NCBI GenBank assembly: GCA_017635875.1
Contig: JAGBKP010000115.1
Span: forward strand, 1 to 46,013
DNA length: 46,013 nucleotides
DNA from: Selenomonadaceae bacterium
Lineage (GTDB): Bacteria; Bacillota; Negativicutes; Selenomonadales; Selenomonadaceae
Direction of reading: 5' to 3'
The position numbers and the translations under genes were made by a program. The notes beneath the pieces were generated by a model. The model was given only the letters and a program-made list of their open reading frames with translations. It did not search any database and was not told the origin of the DNA. Below are positions 1,520-22,821 of the stretch, one piece after another (within the stretch, counting starts at the first letter, position 1; each line of letters starts with the position of its first letter).

Positions 1520-2980
1520 ATGACGCAGTTTGATAAACGAAACTTAAGTATGATGATGGATTTTTACGAAATGACTATGGCAAACGGTTATTTTGAAAAC
1601 GATATGAAATGCAAAAAAGTGGTCTTTGACGTTTTTTATCGTGAAAATCCCGACGGCGGCGGGTTCGCCATATTTGCAGGGCTTGAGCAGGTTATAGAAT
1701 ATGTTGAAAATCTCCGTTTCGATGAAGACGATATAGAATATTTTAGGTCGCAGAATATTTTTTCCGATAAATTTTTAAATTATTTGAAAGATTTTCGCTT
1801 TAAAGGCGATATTGTCGCTTTACCGGAAGGCACGGTAATGTACCCGAACGAGCCGATTGTAACGGTTATCGCCCCCGTAATAGACGCGCAACTAATCGAA
1901 ACCGCGATTCTCGCGCAGATAAATCATCAATCGCTTATAGCCACGAAGGCAAGACGAATAGTTTATTCCGCGGAGGGCAGAGCCGTCAGCGATTTTGGCG
2001 CAAGACGGGCGCACAATATGGACGCTGCGACTTACGGCGCAAGAGCCGCGTATATCGGCGGAGTTGTCGGTACCGCAACTGTTACGGCGGGGCAAATGTT
2101 TAACATTCCCGTGAGCGGCACTATGGCGCACAGTTGGATTATGCTCTACGGCGACGAATACGAAGCCTTTAAGCGTTACGCGGAGGTTTACCCCGACGCG
2201 TCCGTCTTTTTGGTTGATACTTACGACGTTGTTCATTCGGGCGTGCCGAACGCGATAAAAGTCGCAAAAGAAGTTTTAGAGCCTATGGGAAAAAGGCTCA
2301 AAGGCGTTCGTATAGATTCCGGCGATTTGGCGTATCTATCCAAGAAAATTCGCAAGATGCTTGATAACGCGGGGCTTTCAGATTGCAAAATAATAGTTTC
2401 GAACAGTTTGGACGAATTTACTATAACTTCGCTACTCCATCAAGGCGCGGCGATAGACAGTTTCGGAGTAGGGGAGCGGCTTATTACCGCAAAATCCCAG
2501 CCTGTATTCGGAGGAGTGTATAAACTTGCCGCGGTTGAAGAAAACGGCGAATTTATCCCGCGTATGAAGGTTTCCGAAAATATCGAAAAAATCACCAACC
2601 CGGGGCAAAAAGAAGTTTATAGGATTTACGATTCCACAAATCACGCCGTCGCGGATTTAATCACCCTCGCGGGCGAAAAAGTGGATATGTCGCTGCCGTA
2701 TAGGTACATAGACCCAAAAAAACCTTGGAAAAATCGTTTTTTTGAAAATTGCACGGCTAAAAATCTTCGCAAACTCTATGTAAAAGACGGAAAACGCGTG
2801 GAAAAATTGCCCGCTTTAAGCGAAATTCGCGATTATGTGAAAAAACAACTCGACGAAGAAATTTGGGACGAGGAGCAACGCTTTGAAAATCCTCATACTC
2901 ACTATCTTGATATGTCGCCGACTTATTACGAATTAAAAATGAGTTTGCTTCACGAAACGAAGCGTCAACACGAGGAGTGA
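1520..2980 (+). CDS. pncB: Nicotinate phosphoribosyltransferase
   Basis: A 486-residue enzyme that makes nicotinate mononucleotide from nicotinate, PRPP and ATP for NAD salvage. The N-terminus carries the family signature NPDGGGFAIFAGLEQV. Mid-protein HSWIMLYGDEYEAF, then VDTYD and GVRIDSGDL, build the phosphoribosyl/phosphate site. Length fits the long Firmicute/PncB2 type. AGGAGG precedes the ATG at ideal spacing. It heads a three-gene run with aroE (4 nt downstream) and mtnN. The promoter was not confidently resolved in the AT-rich stretch after element A. Confidence 0.95.
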   Translation: MTQFDKRNLSMMMDFYEMTMANGYFENDMKCKKVVFDVFYRENPDGGGFAIFAGLEQVIEYVENLRFDEDDIEYFRSQNIFSDKFLNYLKDFRFKGDIVALPEGTVMYPNEPIVTVIAPVIDAQLIETAILAQINHQSLIATKARRIVYSAEGRAVSDFGARRAHNMDAATYGARAAYIGGVVGTATVTAGQMFNIPVSGTMAHSWIMLYGDEYEAFKRYAEVYPDASVFLVDTYDVVHSGVPNAIKVAKEVLEPMGKRLKGVRIDSGDLAYLSKKIRKMLDNAGLSDCKIIVSNSLDEFTITSLLHQGAAIDSFGVGERLITAKSQPVFGGVYKLAAVEENGEFIPRMKVSENIEKITNPGQKEVYRIYDSTNHAVADLITLAGEKVDMSLPYRYIDPKKPWKNRFFENCTAKNLRKLYVKDGKRVEKLPALSEIRDYVKKQLDEEIWDEEQRFENPHTHYLDMSPTYYELKMSLLHETKRQHEE

Positions 2981-2984
2981 AGTT

Positions 2985-3851
2985 ATGATTACGGGAAATA
3001 CGAAACTGCTTGGAGTTATGGGGCATCCCATAAATCATTCCTTTTCCCCCGCCATACACAACGCGGCGTTAAACGACGCTGGGCTTGATTACGCGTATTT
3101 GCCCCTTGAAGTGCCGAAAGAATCTTTAAACAATACGCTAAAATGGATTAAGACGCTGAATTTTCGCGGTTTTAACGTAACAATTCCGCATAAAAACGAT
3201 ATTTTGCCGCTTTTGGACGAAGTGACGGAAGAAGCCAAAACTGTCGGCGCGGTAAACACGGTTATAAGGGAAAACGGACGGCTTATAGGATATAATACGG
3301 ATATAGTGGGCTTTACTGCGGGGCTTGCCGAAGCAAATTTTAAAGCTGAAAACAAAAACGCCGTAATCCTTGGCGCGGGCGGCGCAGCGAGAGCTGTGAT
3401 AGCAGGGCTTTTAAAGGAAAAGATAAAAAATATCGCGATAGCGGCAAGAAATACGGAAAAAGCCGAAATTCTCGCAAAAAATTTCAATAGGGGCGTTGTT
3501 TGCGTGAATTTTGCGGACGAAGAATATAATAACCTCCTAAAAGACGCCGATATCGTGGTAAACACAACGCCGCTCGGTATGTACCCCAATGTGGACGCTA
3601 TGCCTCCGATTGATTTTTCAATCGTAAAAAAAGACGCGCTAATCTATGATATAATATATACGCCCGAAGAAACAAAATTTTTAAAAGAAGCCAAAGAAAA
3701 AGGATTAAAAACTGCAAACGGCGAAACTATGCTTGTAGAGCAGGGCGCGGCGGCGTTTAGACTATGGACGGGGGAAGATCCCAACGTAGACTTAATGAAG
3801 GAAACTTTAAGGAACGCTCTTAAAGACTGCAGGCACGAGGGAGTGGAGTAA
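2985..3851 (+). CDS. aroE: Shikimate dehydrogenase (NADP+)
   Basis: A 288-residue AroE that reduces 3-dehydroshikimate to shikimate in chorismate synthesis. Visible motifs are the substrate site NVTIPHK (about 61-67), the dinucleotide site GAGGAARAV (about 126-134), NTTPLGM, and the C-terminal NGETMLVEQGAAAF. It starts 4 nt after the pncB stop, with GAGGAG in the end of pncB as ribosome site, and ends immediately before the mtnN ATG, so translation is probably coupled. Other aromatic genes (aroF, tyrA) lie 10 kb away and separately transcribed. Confidence 0.95.
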   Translation: MITGNTKLLGVMGHPINHSFSPAIHNAALNDAGLDYAYLPLEVPKESLNNTLKWIKTLNFRGFNVTIPHKNDILPLLDEVTEEAKTVGAVNTVIRENGRLIGYNTDIVGFTAGLAEANFKAENKNAVILGAGGAARAVIAGLLKEKIKNIAIAARNTEKAEILAKNFNRGVVCVNFADEEYNNLLKDADIVVNTTPLGMYPNVDAMPPIDFSIVKKDALIYDIIYTPEETKFLKEAKEKGLKTANGETMLVEQGAAAFRLWTGEDPNVDLMKETLRNALKDCRHEGVE

Positions 3852-4547
3852 ATGAAAATCGGAATAATCGGCGCTATGGAAATGGAAATAACGCTGTTAA
3901 GAGAAAAAATGACTGAGATTAAGTCGACCGAAATCGCGGGCATAACCTTTTTTGAGGGGAAAATCGGCGATATATCCGTCGTTCTTGCTCGCTCCGGCAT
4001 CGGCAAAGTAAACGCCGCTATGACGGCTGAAATCGCCATATCTTCATTTAAAGCGACGCATATCATAAACACGGGTTGCGCCGGCGCGCTTGACAAGACT
4101 CTCGTCGTAGGCGACGTTGTAATCTCAAAGGACGCCGTGGAGCACGACCTCGACACTTCCGCCATAGGTTTTAAAAAGGGCGAGCATCCCTTTATGAACA
4201 TTCGTTTCTTTGAAGCGGACAAAGAGCTTTCCGAAAAAGCCGTTGCCGCCGTTAAAGGCGTTTTCCCCGAAATAACCGTAAAATACGGCAGAATATGCTC
4301 GGGCGACCAATTCATTTCATCGAAAGAGAAAAAAGCGGAGCTTACGGAGGAATTTGACGGGTCCTGCGCTGAAATGGAAGGCGCGGCGATAGCGCACGTT
4401 TGCTATTTGCACAAAGTTCCTTTTTGCATCATACGCGCAATAAGCGACCAAGCGGACGAAAAAGGGCAGATGTCTTTTGAGGAGTTCGCTCCCATAGCCT
4501 CGAAACGCAGCGCGGAAATTACAAATTATATGCTTAAAAATTGGTGA
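3852..4547 (+). CDS. mtnN: 5'-methylthioadenosine/S-adenosylhomocysteine nucleosidase
   Basis: A 231-residue Pfs/MtnN enzyme that hydrolyses MTA and SAH to adenine plus the thioribose product, recycling SAM by-products. It shows IGIIGAMEMEI with the catalytic-site Glu, NTGCAGAL, VVGDVVISKDAVEHD, the nucleoside-binding CAEMEGAAIAHVCY and RAISDQAD. The start codon directly abuts the aroE stop. A weak inverted repeat (TTTCA/TGAAA) follows, and then element B. Confidence 0.95.
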   Translation: MKIGIIGAMEMEITLLREKMTEIKSTEIAGITFFEGKIGDISVVLARSGIGKVNAAMTAEIAISSFKATHIINTGCAGALDKTLVVGDVVISKDAVEHDLDTSAIGFKKGEHPFMNIRFFEADKELSEKAVAAVKGVFPEITVKYGRICSGDQFISSKEKKAELTEEFDGSCAEMEGAAIAHVCYLHKVPFCIIRAISDQADEKGQMSFEEFAPIASKRSAEITNYMLKNW

Positions 4548-4645
4548 TTTGGCAGGAAATTTTCATTTTTTGGTGAAATAAAAAATAATTGGATATGTTC
4601 AGACTGTCGACAAAACAAAAAAATTAAAAATCAATAATGAAGAAA

Positions 4646-4760
4646 ACTAATCAATAGAGTTTAGTAAAGTTTTTTCTTTCTTCTTTTTCTTTGCTACTTT
4701 CTTTTTCTTCTTTCTTTTTTTCAAAAAAGAAAGAAGAAAAAGAAAGTAGGATAAGTCTAC
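4646..4760 (+). repeat. Triplex-type three-arm repeat, copy B
   Basis: After a leader CAATAGAGTTTAGTAAAG come pyrimidine arm Y1 (4670-4692), centre GCTAC (4693-4697), pyrimidine arm Y2 (4698-4720), a 2-nt loop, and purine arm R (4723-4745) closed by GTAG. Y2 with its CTAC pairs perfectly with R over 27 bp. Y1 is an exact 23-nt mirror of Y2. Copy C is almost identical over the leader and arms. The remaining part of this 300-base gap (4548-4645, 4761-4847) holds only a weak hairpin and the ribosome site of the next gene. Confidence 0.85.
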
Positions 4761-18939: not shown

Positions 18940-20097
18940 TTATAGCTTATATTTTTTTATTTCATCGACTATTTTATAAAAATCTTCCGCTAAATTTAGC
19001 GTATCGCCTCTGTAAGTGCGCCCCGAAAAAGCCGTATGTGGCAGGGGAATAAATGGAGTGTTTCCTGCTATCGCTTGATACATTGGGTCTGCGATTATTA
19101 AATCAGCGCGTTTGAATTTTTCTTCTAATTCGCTCTCGCTTTTAAAAACTTCATCGCCTGCTCTAATAAATTCTTTTTCGGTCGTCGTCGTGTTGATTAC
19201 CGTTATTTTGCAACCTATTTCGTGTTCAAGCGCAGTGGCGAGAGAGGCGGCGATTATGCTTTCGTATATTAAGTAAAATTTTTTTTCTTTTTTTAGGTTT
19301 AAGTTTAAATTATAAGCTGCGCCGTTATTATTTGTCTTTATCAGCTTTAAAATATTTTCGCCGACCATTCCTACGGGAAGTCCGATTATATACGGAATAT
19401 TCCACGCCTTTTTCATCGTTTTGGCGGCGGAAAGTCCTCCGTAAGAAACTACGATATTATAAGCCGCTTTGTAGGCGTTGTTTAACTTATCAAAATCGGT
19501 ATTCATAGCGAATGTTGATATTACGGGAATATCTTGATTTTCAAAAAATTCTGTTATGGCTTTATCCGCGCCGTTTAACGCAAAATCTAAAGGGGTAAGA
19601 CCTAATATATTTACCCCTTTTCTTAAGTTTGGCGGATAATGCTTTTTTGTGTTTTCGATTATAATACCAGCGATTTTTTTAAGCGCAAGACTAATGCCGA
19701 CGGAATAGTCTTGCATACTTGTGGTAGGCAGAGCGAAAGTTTTTATATTCGTGTTTTTTTCGATAACTTTTGATATTCCGTTCATATCAATACCGAGCAT
19801 AGCGGGCATCTGCGCGGATAAAAGAGCGATAAACTTGGGCTTTTGCAAAAGAGCCGTTTTTGTAACGTCGTCTATAAATTTCTTATCGTTTCCAAGTATC
19901 GCGTCTCTTTCCGTCAGCGCGGAAATATATAGGAGCGTTTTAGAATCAAACCAGCGCGGCTCGTCGTGCGTCGTATACGTAGAATTGCAACCCGACGGGT
20001 CGTGTATAACAATCATACCGCCAAGTTCAAAGAGCGCGGACACGGCTCCGAACACATCGGCGGAATATGTTGAAATAATGCGATTGACTTGTTTCAT
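18940..20097 (-). CDS. Solitary nitrogenase component 1-type (NifD/NifE-like) oxidoreductase
   Basis: A 385-residue member of the nitrogenase component 1 superfamily: an N-terminal FELGGMIVIHDPSGC segment with Cys37 at a P-cluster-like position, then HDEPRWF, three Rossmann-like subdomains with NILGLTPLDF, SYGGLSAAKTMKKAWNIPYI and DLIIADPMYQAIA. It is shorter than NifD and only one N-terminal Cys could bind a cluster. No NifH-like reductase or second component 1 gene is adjacent, so substrate and partner are unknown. Start chosen at the ATG 20097 with AAAGGG upstream; the open frame extends 29 codons further without support. Confidence 0.75.
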   Translation of the reverse strand: MKQVNRIISTYSADVFGAVSALFELGGMIVIHDPSGCNSTYTTHDEPRWFDSKTLLYISALTERDAILGNDKKFIDDVTKTALLQKPKFIALLSAQMPAMLGIDMNGISKVIEKNTNIKTFALPTTSMQDYSVGISLALKKIAGIIIENTKKHYPPNLRKGVNILGLTPLDFALNGADKAITEFFENQDIPVISTFAMNTDFDKLNNAYKAAYNIVVSYGGLSAAKTMKKAWNIPYIIGLPVGMVGENILKLIKTNNNGAAYNLNLNLKKEKKFYLIYESIIAASLATALEHEIGCKITVINTTTTEKEFIRAGDEVFKSESELEEKFKRADLIIADPMYQAIAGNTPFIPLPHTAFSGRTYRGDTLNLAEDFYKIVDEIKKYKL

Positions 20098-20117
20098 TGT
20101 ATTCCCTTTTCGAATAT

Positions 20118-20142
20118 ATAAAAAAAGAAGCCGTAAGGCTTC
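20118..20142 (-). terminator. Terminator between tRNA-Leu and nitrogenase-like gene
   Basis: Hairpin GAAGCC TTAC GGCTTC followed by seven T on the minus strand, 5' of the nitrogenase-like gene and 3' of the tRNA-Leu plus element C region. Confidence 0.75.
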
Positions 20143-20149
20143 AAGAATG

Positions 20150-20301
20150 TAGACAAAATTAAAAATTACAAAGCAATAGAGCAAAAACTAATCAATAGAG
20201 TTTAGTAAAGTTTTTTCTTTCTTCTTTTTCTTTGCTACTTTCTTTTTCTTCTTTCTTTTTTACAAAAAAGAAAGAAGAAAAAGAAAGTAGGACAAGTCTA
20301 C
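20150..20301 (+). repeat. Triplex-type three-arm repeat, copy C
   Basis: Same layout as copy B and almost identical: leader CAATAGAGTTTAGTAAAG ending at 20210, Y1 20211-20233, centre GCTAC, Y2 20239-20261, a 2-nt loop, R 20264-20286 closed by GTAG. Outer ends read GTAGAC and GTCTAC. It is flanked by the 12-bp direct repeat CCGTAAGGCTTC (20131-20142 and 20312-20323). It lies antisense to the tRNA-Leu transcript. Confidence 0.85.
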
Positions 20302-20464: not shown

Positions 20465-21757
20465 TTAAATATCCTTCCACACAAGGTCGGATAATTTTTC
20501 ATAAGCCTTTGCTATATCGTTTGGGTCAATTTGCGTAATGCAGTGCATTTTCCCAATCATAGAACAACCGCCTATGGTAGAATTTTCGTTATCGCATGGC
20601 GGCAGAGGTTTTTTCGGTCTTACGATTACAGACGGAGTCTGCCACGGAGCGCATCTGTCGACTATAGAAGTTGCGTCTGTTTTTAGCGTAACGGGGGCGC
20701 AGTTTATCTCTATTACGGGCAAACGCAACGCGGCTGCCATGTGCATCGTGCCCGTATCCATTCCGATATACATAGAAGAAAGGGAAAGCGCGGCGGCGGT
20801 TTCTCTTAGAGTTGTTTGTCCTATAAGATTTAATGCTGCGTCTTGTAATTTTTCGTGTAAAAAAGAGCCGAATTCCTTTTCGGATTTTCCTCCCAAAAAC
20901 ATAAAACAATTATGGGGGCGTTTTATTTTTTGCAGAGCGATAAGCATTTTTTCGGGCGGATAAGTTTTGTGAAGCCATTTAGAGCCGACTGTTACGGCGA
21001 TTACTTGTCTTTCTTTTGCAAAATTCGATATGATTTGCTGCATACGCCTATAATCTTCTTTATCGTACCAAAGTTCCATATGGGTGTTTTCAACTCGCAA
21101 GTTTTTGGCTTTCAGCATATAAAAATTACGCGCAGCCTCGTGAATTACATCGTGAGGAGCAATTAACGGCGCGGTCAAGAGTTCGTCTATATACGGCTCA
21201 AAATTTTTTCTCAAAGAATGAACGCTTGCGCTGTATCCTATGCGTTCTCTTGCGCCGCTTAAATATGCCAAAAACGCGGCGTAGCGATCGCCGTCTATAT
21301 CCCAACGCGGTAAAAAAGCGACGGAATATCTTCTTTTCCACAGTCTGTGATAGCAGAGGTTGACAATTTCCTCAAATCGCGATACTAAATTTGGCAAACG
21401 GTCAACGGAAAAACCTATAACTTCATTTACATAAGGACAAAGTTCCATTAAAGGGGCTACCGTTGGATTAACAATCGATGTAATGAAAGCCGTAGGGTAA
21501 TTTTTCCTGAGTTCTCGAAAAAAACCGCTTGTAAGCACATTATCTCCGATTTCGTCAAGACGAACGACAAGTATGCTCATTTGTCCGCAAAAGTCCTCTC
21601 TGTATCCCTCTTGTATAAACGCGGGCTCCATATAGGATTTAAGCATATCGACACTAATAGTTAGCGTTTTTTCGACCTCGTTAAAACAATTTTCAACGGC
21701 TCGCTTTAGTATTGCAGAAGACGATTTTATTTCGGGGGGGGGGTATTGCTGACACAT
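20465..21757 (-). CDS. Family 9 glycosyltransferase (heptosyltransferase-like), probably phase-variable
   Basis: A 430-residue GT9 enzyme of the type that adds heptose or related sugars to lipopolysaccharide. The core begins at about residue 60 with SILVVRLDEIGDNVLT; later come VTVGSKWLHKTYPPEKM and the donor-site region YIGMDTGTMHMAAALRLPVIEI. Codons 5-8 contain ten consecutive C (21734-21743 on the plus strand as G10). With 9 C the frame meets TAA two codons later, and with 11 C it meets TGA about 14 codons later, so tract slippage would switch it off. The ATG at 21757 has GAGGTG upstream; an internal ATG near residue 60 could give a core-only product. Confidence 0.85.
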   Translation of the reverse strand: MCQQYPPPEIKSSSAILKRAVENCFNEVEKTLTISVDMLKSYMEPAFIQEGYREDFCGQMSILVVRLDEIGDNVLTSGFFRELRKNYPTAFITSIVNPTVAPLMELCPYVNEVIGFSVDRLPNLVSRFEEIVNLCYHRLWKRRYSVAFLPRWDIDGDRYAAFLAYLSGARERIGYSASVHSLRKNFEPYIDELLTAPLIAPHDVIHEAARNFYMLKAKNLRVENTHMELWYDKEDYRRMQQIISNFAKERQVIAVTVGSKWLHKTYPPEKMLIALQKIKRPHNCFMFLGGKSEKEFGSFLHEKLQDAALNLIGQTTLRETAAALSLSSMYIGMDTGTMHMAAALRLPVIEINCAPVTLKTDATSIVDRCAPWQTPSVIVRPKKPLPPCDNENSTIGGCSMIGKMHCITQIDPNDIAKAYEKLSDLVWKDI

Positions 21758-21770
21758 TTTTTCACCTCGT

Positions 21771-21813
21771 AAAAAATTATTCGGCAGACGCGCATAATAC
21801 GCAAAGTCTGCCG
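21771..21813 (-). terminator. Terminator between galE and glycosyltransferase region
   Basis: CGGCAGAC (21782-21789) pairs with GTCTGCCG (21806-21813); on the minus strand an AT-rich, T6-containing run follows. It lies 3' of galE and overlaps the leader of the GT9 gene. Confidence 0.7.
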
Positions 21814-21831: not shown

Positions 21832-22821
21832 TTATTTTTTAAATCCCTCGGGATGGCTCTTATGCCAACTCCAAGCCGACGCGATAATATCCTTTACGTC
21901 GATGAATTTCGGCTGCCAGTTTAAGATGCGTTTCGCTTTTTCGCTTGACGCTATCAAAACTGCGGGGTCTCCCGCTCTGCGCTCTCCCATTTCCACCTTT
22001 ATCTCTTTGCCCGTAACAACTTTGGCCGCCTCTATCATCTCTTTAACGGAAAAGCCCTTGCCGTTTCCGAGATTCATAATATCGGACTTGCCGCCGTTTC
22101 TGAGGTAATTAAGCGCCAAAATATGCGCGTCCGCAAGGTCGAAAACGTGTATATAATCGCGTATGCAAGTGCCGTCCTCCGTGTCGTAGTCGTCTCCGAA
22201 AATCGTTATAGCGTCCCGCTTTTTCAGTGCGGTTTTTAAAATCAAAGGTATAAGATGCGTTTCGGGGTTGTGGTCTTCTCCGAAAGAGCCGTCAAGAGTC
22301 GCCCCCGCCGCGTTGAAATAGCGAAGCGATACGAAGCGAATATTGTGCGCTTTTTCCACCCAACGCATCATCTTTTCCATAGCGAGTTTCGTTTCGCCGT
22401 AAGTGTTCGTCGGAATAGTGGGGTCGTCCTCTTTAATAGGTATGCTTTTCGGCTCTCCGTAAGTCGCCGCCGTGGAGGAAAATACGATTTTATCCACGTT
22501 ATGCTTAACGAGAGCGGACAGGAGAACTTCCATACCATGTACGTTGTTGTTGTAGTATTTAAGCGGCTCTTTCATACTTTCGCCCACAAGGGAATTGGCG
22601 GCAAAATGAATTACCGCCTCTATTTTCTCCGTTGCAAAGAGTTTGTCCAAAAAAGCAAAATCCCTTAAATCTCCCTCGTAAAATTTCGCCTTTTTGTTTA
22701 TCGCTTCTCTATGTCCGGATTGCAAATTATCGAGTATTACAACGTCTTCGCCCGCTTCAACCAATTTATAAACAGTATGCGAGCCGATATACCCCGCGCC
22801 GCCGCAAACCAAAATCGCCAT
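21832..22821 (-). CDS. galE: UDP-glucose 4-epimerase
   Basis: A 329-residue extended short-chain dehydrogenase interconverting UDP-glucose and UDP-galactose for surface polysaccharide or galactose use. It shows the NAD site GGAGYIGSHT at the N-terminus, FSSTAATYGEP, the catalytic YGETK (Tyr/Lys), RYFNAAGA and DGTCIRDYIHVFDLADAH. It starts 2 nt after the purD stop with a GAAAGGG site, so it is the last gene of the pur transcript, an uncommon association. Confidence 0.95.
   Translation of the reverse strand: MAILVCGGAGYIGSHTVYKLVEAGEDVVILDNLQSGHREAINKKAKFYEGDLRDFAFLDKLFATEKIEAVIHFAANSLVGESMKEPLKYYNNNVHGMEVLLSALVKHNVDKIVFSSTAATYGEPKSIPIKEDDPTIPTNTYGETKLAMEKMMRWVEKAHNIRFVSLRYFNAAGATLDGSFGEDHNPETHLIPLILKTALKKRDAITIFGDDYDTEDGTCIRDYIHVFDLADAHILALNYLRNGGKSDIMNLGNGKGFSVKEMIEAAKVVTGKEIKVEMGERRAGDPAVLIASSEKAKRILNWQPKFIDVKDIIASAWSWHKSHPEGFKK

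Follow-up and report, generated by a model that had tools for sequence, protein, structure and literature searches.

Does a run of ten cytosines in the first codons of a glycosyltransferase gene act as an on/off switch, or is it an accident of sequence drift or of assembly? This question is raised by the window analysed here, a stretch of 46,013 nucleotides corresponding to contig C72 of a Selenomonadaceae assembly (2.39 Mb in 222 contigs, 89% complete; hereafter G000). On its minus strand, a gene encoding a family 9 glycosyltransferase (GT9) of 430 amino acids is found at positions 20465–21757. The plus strand reads ten G at positions 21734–21743, i.e. exactly C10 on the minus strand (21743–21734), and this tract covers codons 5–8 of the open reading frame (ORF), as the initial annotation had stated. 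From position 21757 downwards, the ORF opens with ATG TGT CAG CAA TAC, continues with CCC CCC CCC and then with GAA ATA AAA, so that the tract is in frame (ON) in the assembly and the product, beginning with MCQQYPPPEIKSSS, is intact. A Shine–Dalgarno sequence (GAGGTG, 21763–21768, minus strand) stands 5 nt upstream of the ATG.

The early stops expected from the loss or gain of a single C were also recovered: one C less gives CCG AAA TAA, and one C more gives TGA after 12 full codons, the open lengths downstream of the tract being 422, 1 and 12 codons across the three frames. No other C or G run of at least 7 exists in the window (the next longest is 6), and C/G 8-mers have three overlapping matches, as compared with a mean of 0.36 per shuffle (1 of 100 shuffles reached as many). 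The gene thus displays two of the features looked for in an SSR phase-variable gene, namely a tract longer than chance, by window shuffles and, as the stronger test, by genome-wide counts, and its place early in the ORF with stops in both alternative frames.

In our view, this C10 run very probably works as a translational phase-variation (contingency) switch and belongs to a genome-wide set of poly-C/G tracts. Slipped-strand mispairing during replication would add or remove C in the tract, and the ensuing change of frame would leave GT9 either full-length or terminated within about 10–26 codons, so that, within one population, a particular sugar would be transferred to a surface glycan in some cells and not in others; the assembly would have captured the ON length. 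Slippage at this locus, its reversibility, the glycan phenotype and the acceptor sugar are what we infer from the DNA.

For such a switch, the place of the tract within the protein matters. The product matches Pfam Glyco_transf_9 (PF01075; E = 1.8e-14, 54.1 bits for a cut-off of 22), and both this sequence family and a predicted GT-B fold assign it to GT9. An AlphaFold model built from 11 sequences (mean pLDDT 87.7) has its closest solved structures in the Veillonella parvula GT9 protein (3tov; Foldseek E 4.9e-20), WaaF (E 5.1e-18) and WaaC, at 16–19% identity. In this model, residues 1–12 have a pLDDT below 50 and are predicted to be disordered; ordered structure starts at residue 14, with the confidently predicted helices 14–31 and 36–49. 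The tract-encoded residues are unconserved in homologues as well as predicted to be disordered, in line with the initial view that the GT9 core does not need them, and the model places the C10 tract in a dispensable N-terminal tail. Consequently, changes of three bases should be tolerated, and changes of one base should abolish the enzyme. Neither the orthologue of the same genus, 55% identical, nor ten other homologues carry a C/G tract at the start of the gene, which makes C10 lineage-specific.

One could object that translation begins inside the gene (at Met38, Met43 or Met60), that the enzyme is therefore always produced and that the tract touches a leader only. In-frame ATGs are indeed present and the Pfam-matched portion begins after residue 60, the position of the internal ATG from which a rescue of expression had initially been proposed (Met60; 21578–21580, minus strand). 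However, this ATG lies downstream of the conserved helices spanning residues 14–49 and of the invariant E44, F47, G51 and R53, and a product initiated there is therefore unlikely to be a normal enzyme. Against any internal start, moreover, a good ribosome site precedes the ATG at 21757 by 5 nt, and most homologues have the same N-terminal extension from their own start codon. This extension, with its motif MEPxFxxxGYR, is common to GT9 homologues of the same genus (55% identity) and of the family (about 33–41%). Constitutive production from within the gene thus appears very improbable.

The function of the switched enzyme is less directly readable. The initial annotation called the glycosyltransferase ‘LPS-type’, a label that goes no further than an assignment by family and fold: the Pfam match and the fold are shared with WaaF (1psw), WaaC (2gt1/2h1h) and 3tov, and an LPS-type role may be supposed from the family. 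It finds no echo in the location of the gene, as no LPS core gene, such as would surround a heptosyltransferase of the WaaC/WaaF/WaaQ type, is present among the annotated neighbours. Upstream lie galE, purD and other purine genes, and on the other side a nitrogenase-component-1-like oxidoreductase and a cation ATPase. Beyond the low identity, this predicted enzyme differs from WaaF, WaaC and 3tov in being encoded outside an LPS cluster and in its conserved additional N-terminal helical module bearing MEPxFxxxGYR. The immediate upstream neighbour on the same strand, a galE-like NAD-dependent epimerase (21832–22821), is without a tract. Between the two genes, folding revealed a terminator-like GC-rich hairpin followed by AAUAAUUUUUU (21782–21813, minus strand; −20.7 kcal/mol for the whole 72-nt fold, z −2.9), which was not among the results of a stricter pattern scan. 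The oxidoreductase adjoining the GT9 gene (18940–20184, minus strand) is a stand-alone gene.

If alone in the window, as first noticed, the C10 tract is far from alone in the genome. Pattern searches of G000 retrieved 34 C/G runs of at least 8, 26 of at least 9 and 17 of at least 10 (the longest being 14), for composition-based expectations of 16–20, 3.3–4.3 and 0.7–0.9, respectively. Runs of A or T of at least 9 number 118, only about 2.5 times a rough composition estimate, hence the excess is stronger for C/G. Across a class-wide survey of 253 Negativicutes genomes, most contain 0–2 runs of C10 or more; the counts reach 86 in G100, 40 in G097, 28 in G098, 27 in G135, 16–17 in G000 and 11 in G002. 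These counts bear on the possibility that C10 is a chance or neutrally drifted run of proline codons, recent and unselected, whose occasional slippage has no adaptive meaning. The absence of the tract from orthologues and an unconserved tail that tolerates any sequence would suit such an origin, and neutral drift is counted among tract origins (PMC6321876). Nevertheless, we regard it as improbable, given 17 runs of at least 10 for about one expected, their concentration in surface-type genes and promoters, and the 0–2 such runs of most complete genomes in the survey.

Loss of mismatch repair was ruled out as the cause of the tracts in G000, where mutS1 and mutL are both present, so that no general hypermutation lies behind the tract. 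Matches to both genes are above cut-off in G000, G001 and the tract-rich G100, and having these genes does not distinguish genomes with many tracts from those with few; the fragmented G002 has no mutL match and that of G099 is partial. The 86 runs of G100 (genus g13) occur in 2.4 Mb of a 100% complete genome, many being 12–13 long, and three GT2-type paralogues of this genome bear C11–C12 a few codons past their start.

The reading of C10 as a switch further depends on whether the lengths themselves can be trusted, since G000 is a single metagenomic consensus in which homopolymer lengths can be wrong, with one consensus genome per species. The actual run might have fewer than ten C or otherwise differ in length, or errors in poly-G reads might have been assembled: the genome is in 222 contigs, two tracts lie at contig starts, and the tract count of another genome, G078, comes from long poly-C stretches on its contig C9 (about 2500–4660), probably an assembly artefact inflating that count. 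By contrast, the G000 tracts are internal to contigs and lie in coherent genes, paralogues as well as genes of other assemblies carry homologous tracts at the corresponding place, and read errors would favour neither surface genes nor a common flank. An artefactual origin consequently seems very improbable. Contigs C24 and C124 were also considered as the two halves of one broken tract, an idea set aside because they do not agree at the second base ahead of the run.

Length differences and frame states are consistent with switching. Seventeen tract genes could be scored, each with a start codon and a ribosome-like site before the run: five, GT9 included, read in frame and the other 12 are displaced by 1–2 nt, an ON share of about one third, as free length drift predicts. 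Past the run, the 12 out-of-frame genes remain open for 123–953 codons, and such intact ORFs argue against decay. Unequal lengths between homologues were seen for other tract families of G000, the GT9 orthologues being without a tract: two citrate-ligase-like genes, 63% identical, carry G9 and G11 at the same position, the flagellin tracts are G10 and G14, and one promoter family displays G8, G9, G9 and G10. Likewise, two adjacent paralogues of G100 (82% identical) have C14 and C11. Together with the genome-wide excess and the surface-type genes involved, these mixed frames and unequal lengths lend good support to the initial proposal of a likely phase-variable gene, which for GT9 itself is drawn from its sequence.

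The tract-linked ORFs of G000 provide a view of what else might be switched. Pfam identified GT9, GT92/GT2, GT11 and PglD/hexapeptide proteins, methyltransferases (three FkbM, one TylF and one other), two flagellins, a type I restriction specificity subunit (HsdS), three citrate-lyase-ligase-like proteins, a kinase-like protein and a GNAT acetyltransferase. The GT9, GT92/GT2, GT11, FkbM, TylF and other methyltransferase, PglD-like, flagellin and HsdS genes are of classic phasome types. Tract-bearing FkbM-type genes occur in each of the four genomes examined, the tract lying on one strand or the other and at differing positions; this recurrence suggests that switching of the FkbM function has been selected repeatedly. 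In the two flagellin genes (L075:3861–3870, G10; L092:3995–4008, G14), the run falls in the conserved N-terminal helix and both are out of frame. The HsdS-type gene (L078:4008–4015) has a G8 between its two recognition domains, is also out of frame, and this G8 is a possible phasevarion switch.

A second mode of action emerges from five G000 tracts (L079, L082, L094, L095 and L071) located between TTGACA and TATACT-like hexamers. Their spacers measure 18, 19, 19, 20 and 20 because the G runs are 8, 9, 9, 10 and 10 long, following the pattern TTGACA-N7-G(8–10)-N3-TATACT; four of the five are the sole four copies of this promoter element in G000, and the ORFs downstream are large and begin with or near M-N-x-x-FDLQxF. 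We regard this family as putative promoter-spacer phase variation. The poly-C/G set would accordingly act on surface-glycan, methyltransferase, flagellin and restriction genes either through the reading frame, as at GT9, or through promoter spacing, as at these other loci. One of the five, the G10 tract of L071 (C89:2052–2061), is located a short way upstream of miaB-mutS-mutL, in divergent orientation. A phase-variable mutator was envisaged at this site and set aside, the promoter-like spacer facing the divergent surface-type gene and not mutS.

Poly-G/C phase variation is well known from Neisseria, where it affects LPS glycosyltransferases and includes a promoter-spacer type such as that of porA. 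Both arrangements are met here, the reading-frame type at GT9 and the −35/−10 spacer type at other G000 loci, where the promoter family precedes large ORFs; the likeness considered is one of arrangement. Another parallel comes from Campylobacter jejuni and its relatives, which have dozens of G/C mononucleotide runs per genome, mostly 8–11 long, in glycan-modifying and flagellar genes with translational ON/OFF states, such states being deduced from sequence in the present case. In Campylobacter, tracts of at least 8 switch and lengths of 9–10 dominate (PhasomeIt, PMC6321876), and C. jejuni NCTC11168 has 29 loci with tracts of at least 7 (PMC4965091). The G000 lengths of 8–14 fall in this switching range (PMC6321876) and thus fit phase variation. 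The host studied here differs from Campylobacter in belonging to another phylum, the diderm Firmicutes, in having both MutS1 and MutL, and in the common flank of its tracts.

The open-access literature searched contained nothing relevant on phase variation in Selenomonas, Negativicutes or Selenomonadaceae, and within that literature a multi-locus phasome in this clade appears to be new. The existence of large poly-C/G phasomes in uncultured Negativicutes is suggested by G000, from an uncultured gut-type bacterium, and by relatives of which G100 is one; the named relatives, RUG11858 and Selenomonas sp. SUG490 among them, are MAGs. Those of the GT9 gene are found in one Veillonellaceae MAG and one Selenomonas sp. 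MAG, which places the host in Negativicutes, probably in Selenomonadaceae. With such phasomes, individual cells would differ in their surface sugars, flagellin and restriction, a variation plausibly directed against phages or protozoa.

Finally, the long runs share a flank. Among 89 C runs of at least 8 in three genomes of the genus (G000, G001 and G002; loci L065–L126 and L161–L175), the adjacent 5′ base is A in 82% and the one before it T in 67%, and the adjacent 3′ base is G in 65%. This TA-Cn-G flank separates long runs from runs of 4–5 C (Fisher P = 5.8e-11, 4.0e-10 and 8.2e-6 in G000, G001 and G002, respectively), and in G100 (loci L127–L156) the flank is TG-Cn-G (P = 3.5e-8); these tests treat sites as independent, some sites being paralogues. 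A by-product of short-run composition was rejected, as the runs of 4–5 C are without the signature. Coding, promoter and Fur-box-like sites all carry the signature, on both strands, so that codons do not account for it. T-to-C changes at run edges could account for the missing T, but not for the choice between A and G or for the second base. A lineage-specific process or factor that would create, maintain or tune hypermutable tracts in a recognized TA-Cn-G (or TG-Cn-G) context may be imagined from these flanks, although we think it rather unlikely; such a tuning layer on poly-G/C phase variation was not described in the open-access papers searched. Some C8–C10 runs directly adjoin Fur-box-like sequences such as GATAATAATTATCATTTGCATT (L109 and L113 in G002; L110, L118 and L161 in G001), an arrangement which suggests that iron genes may be under tract control.
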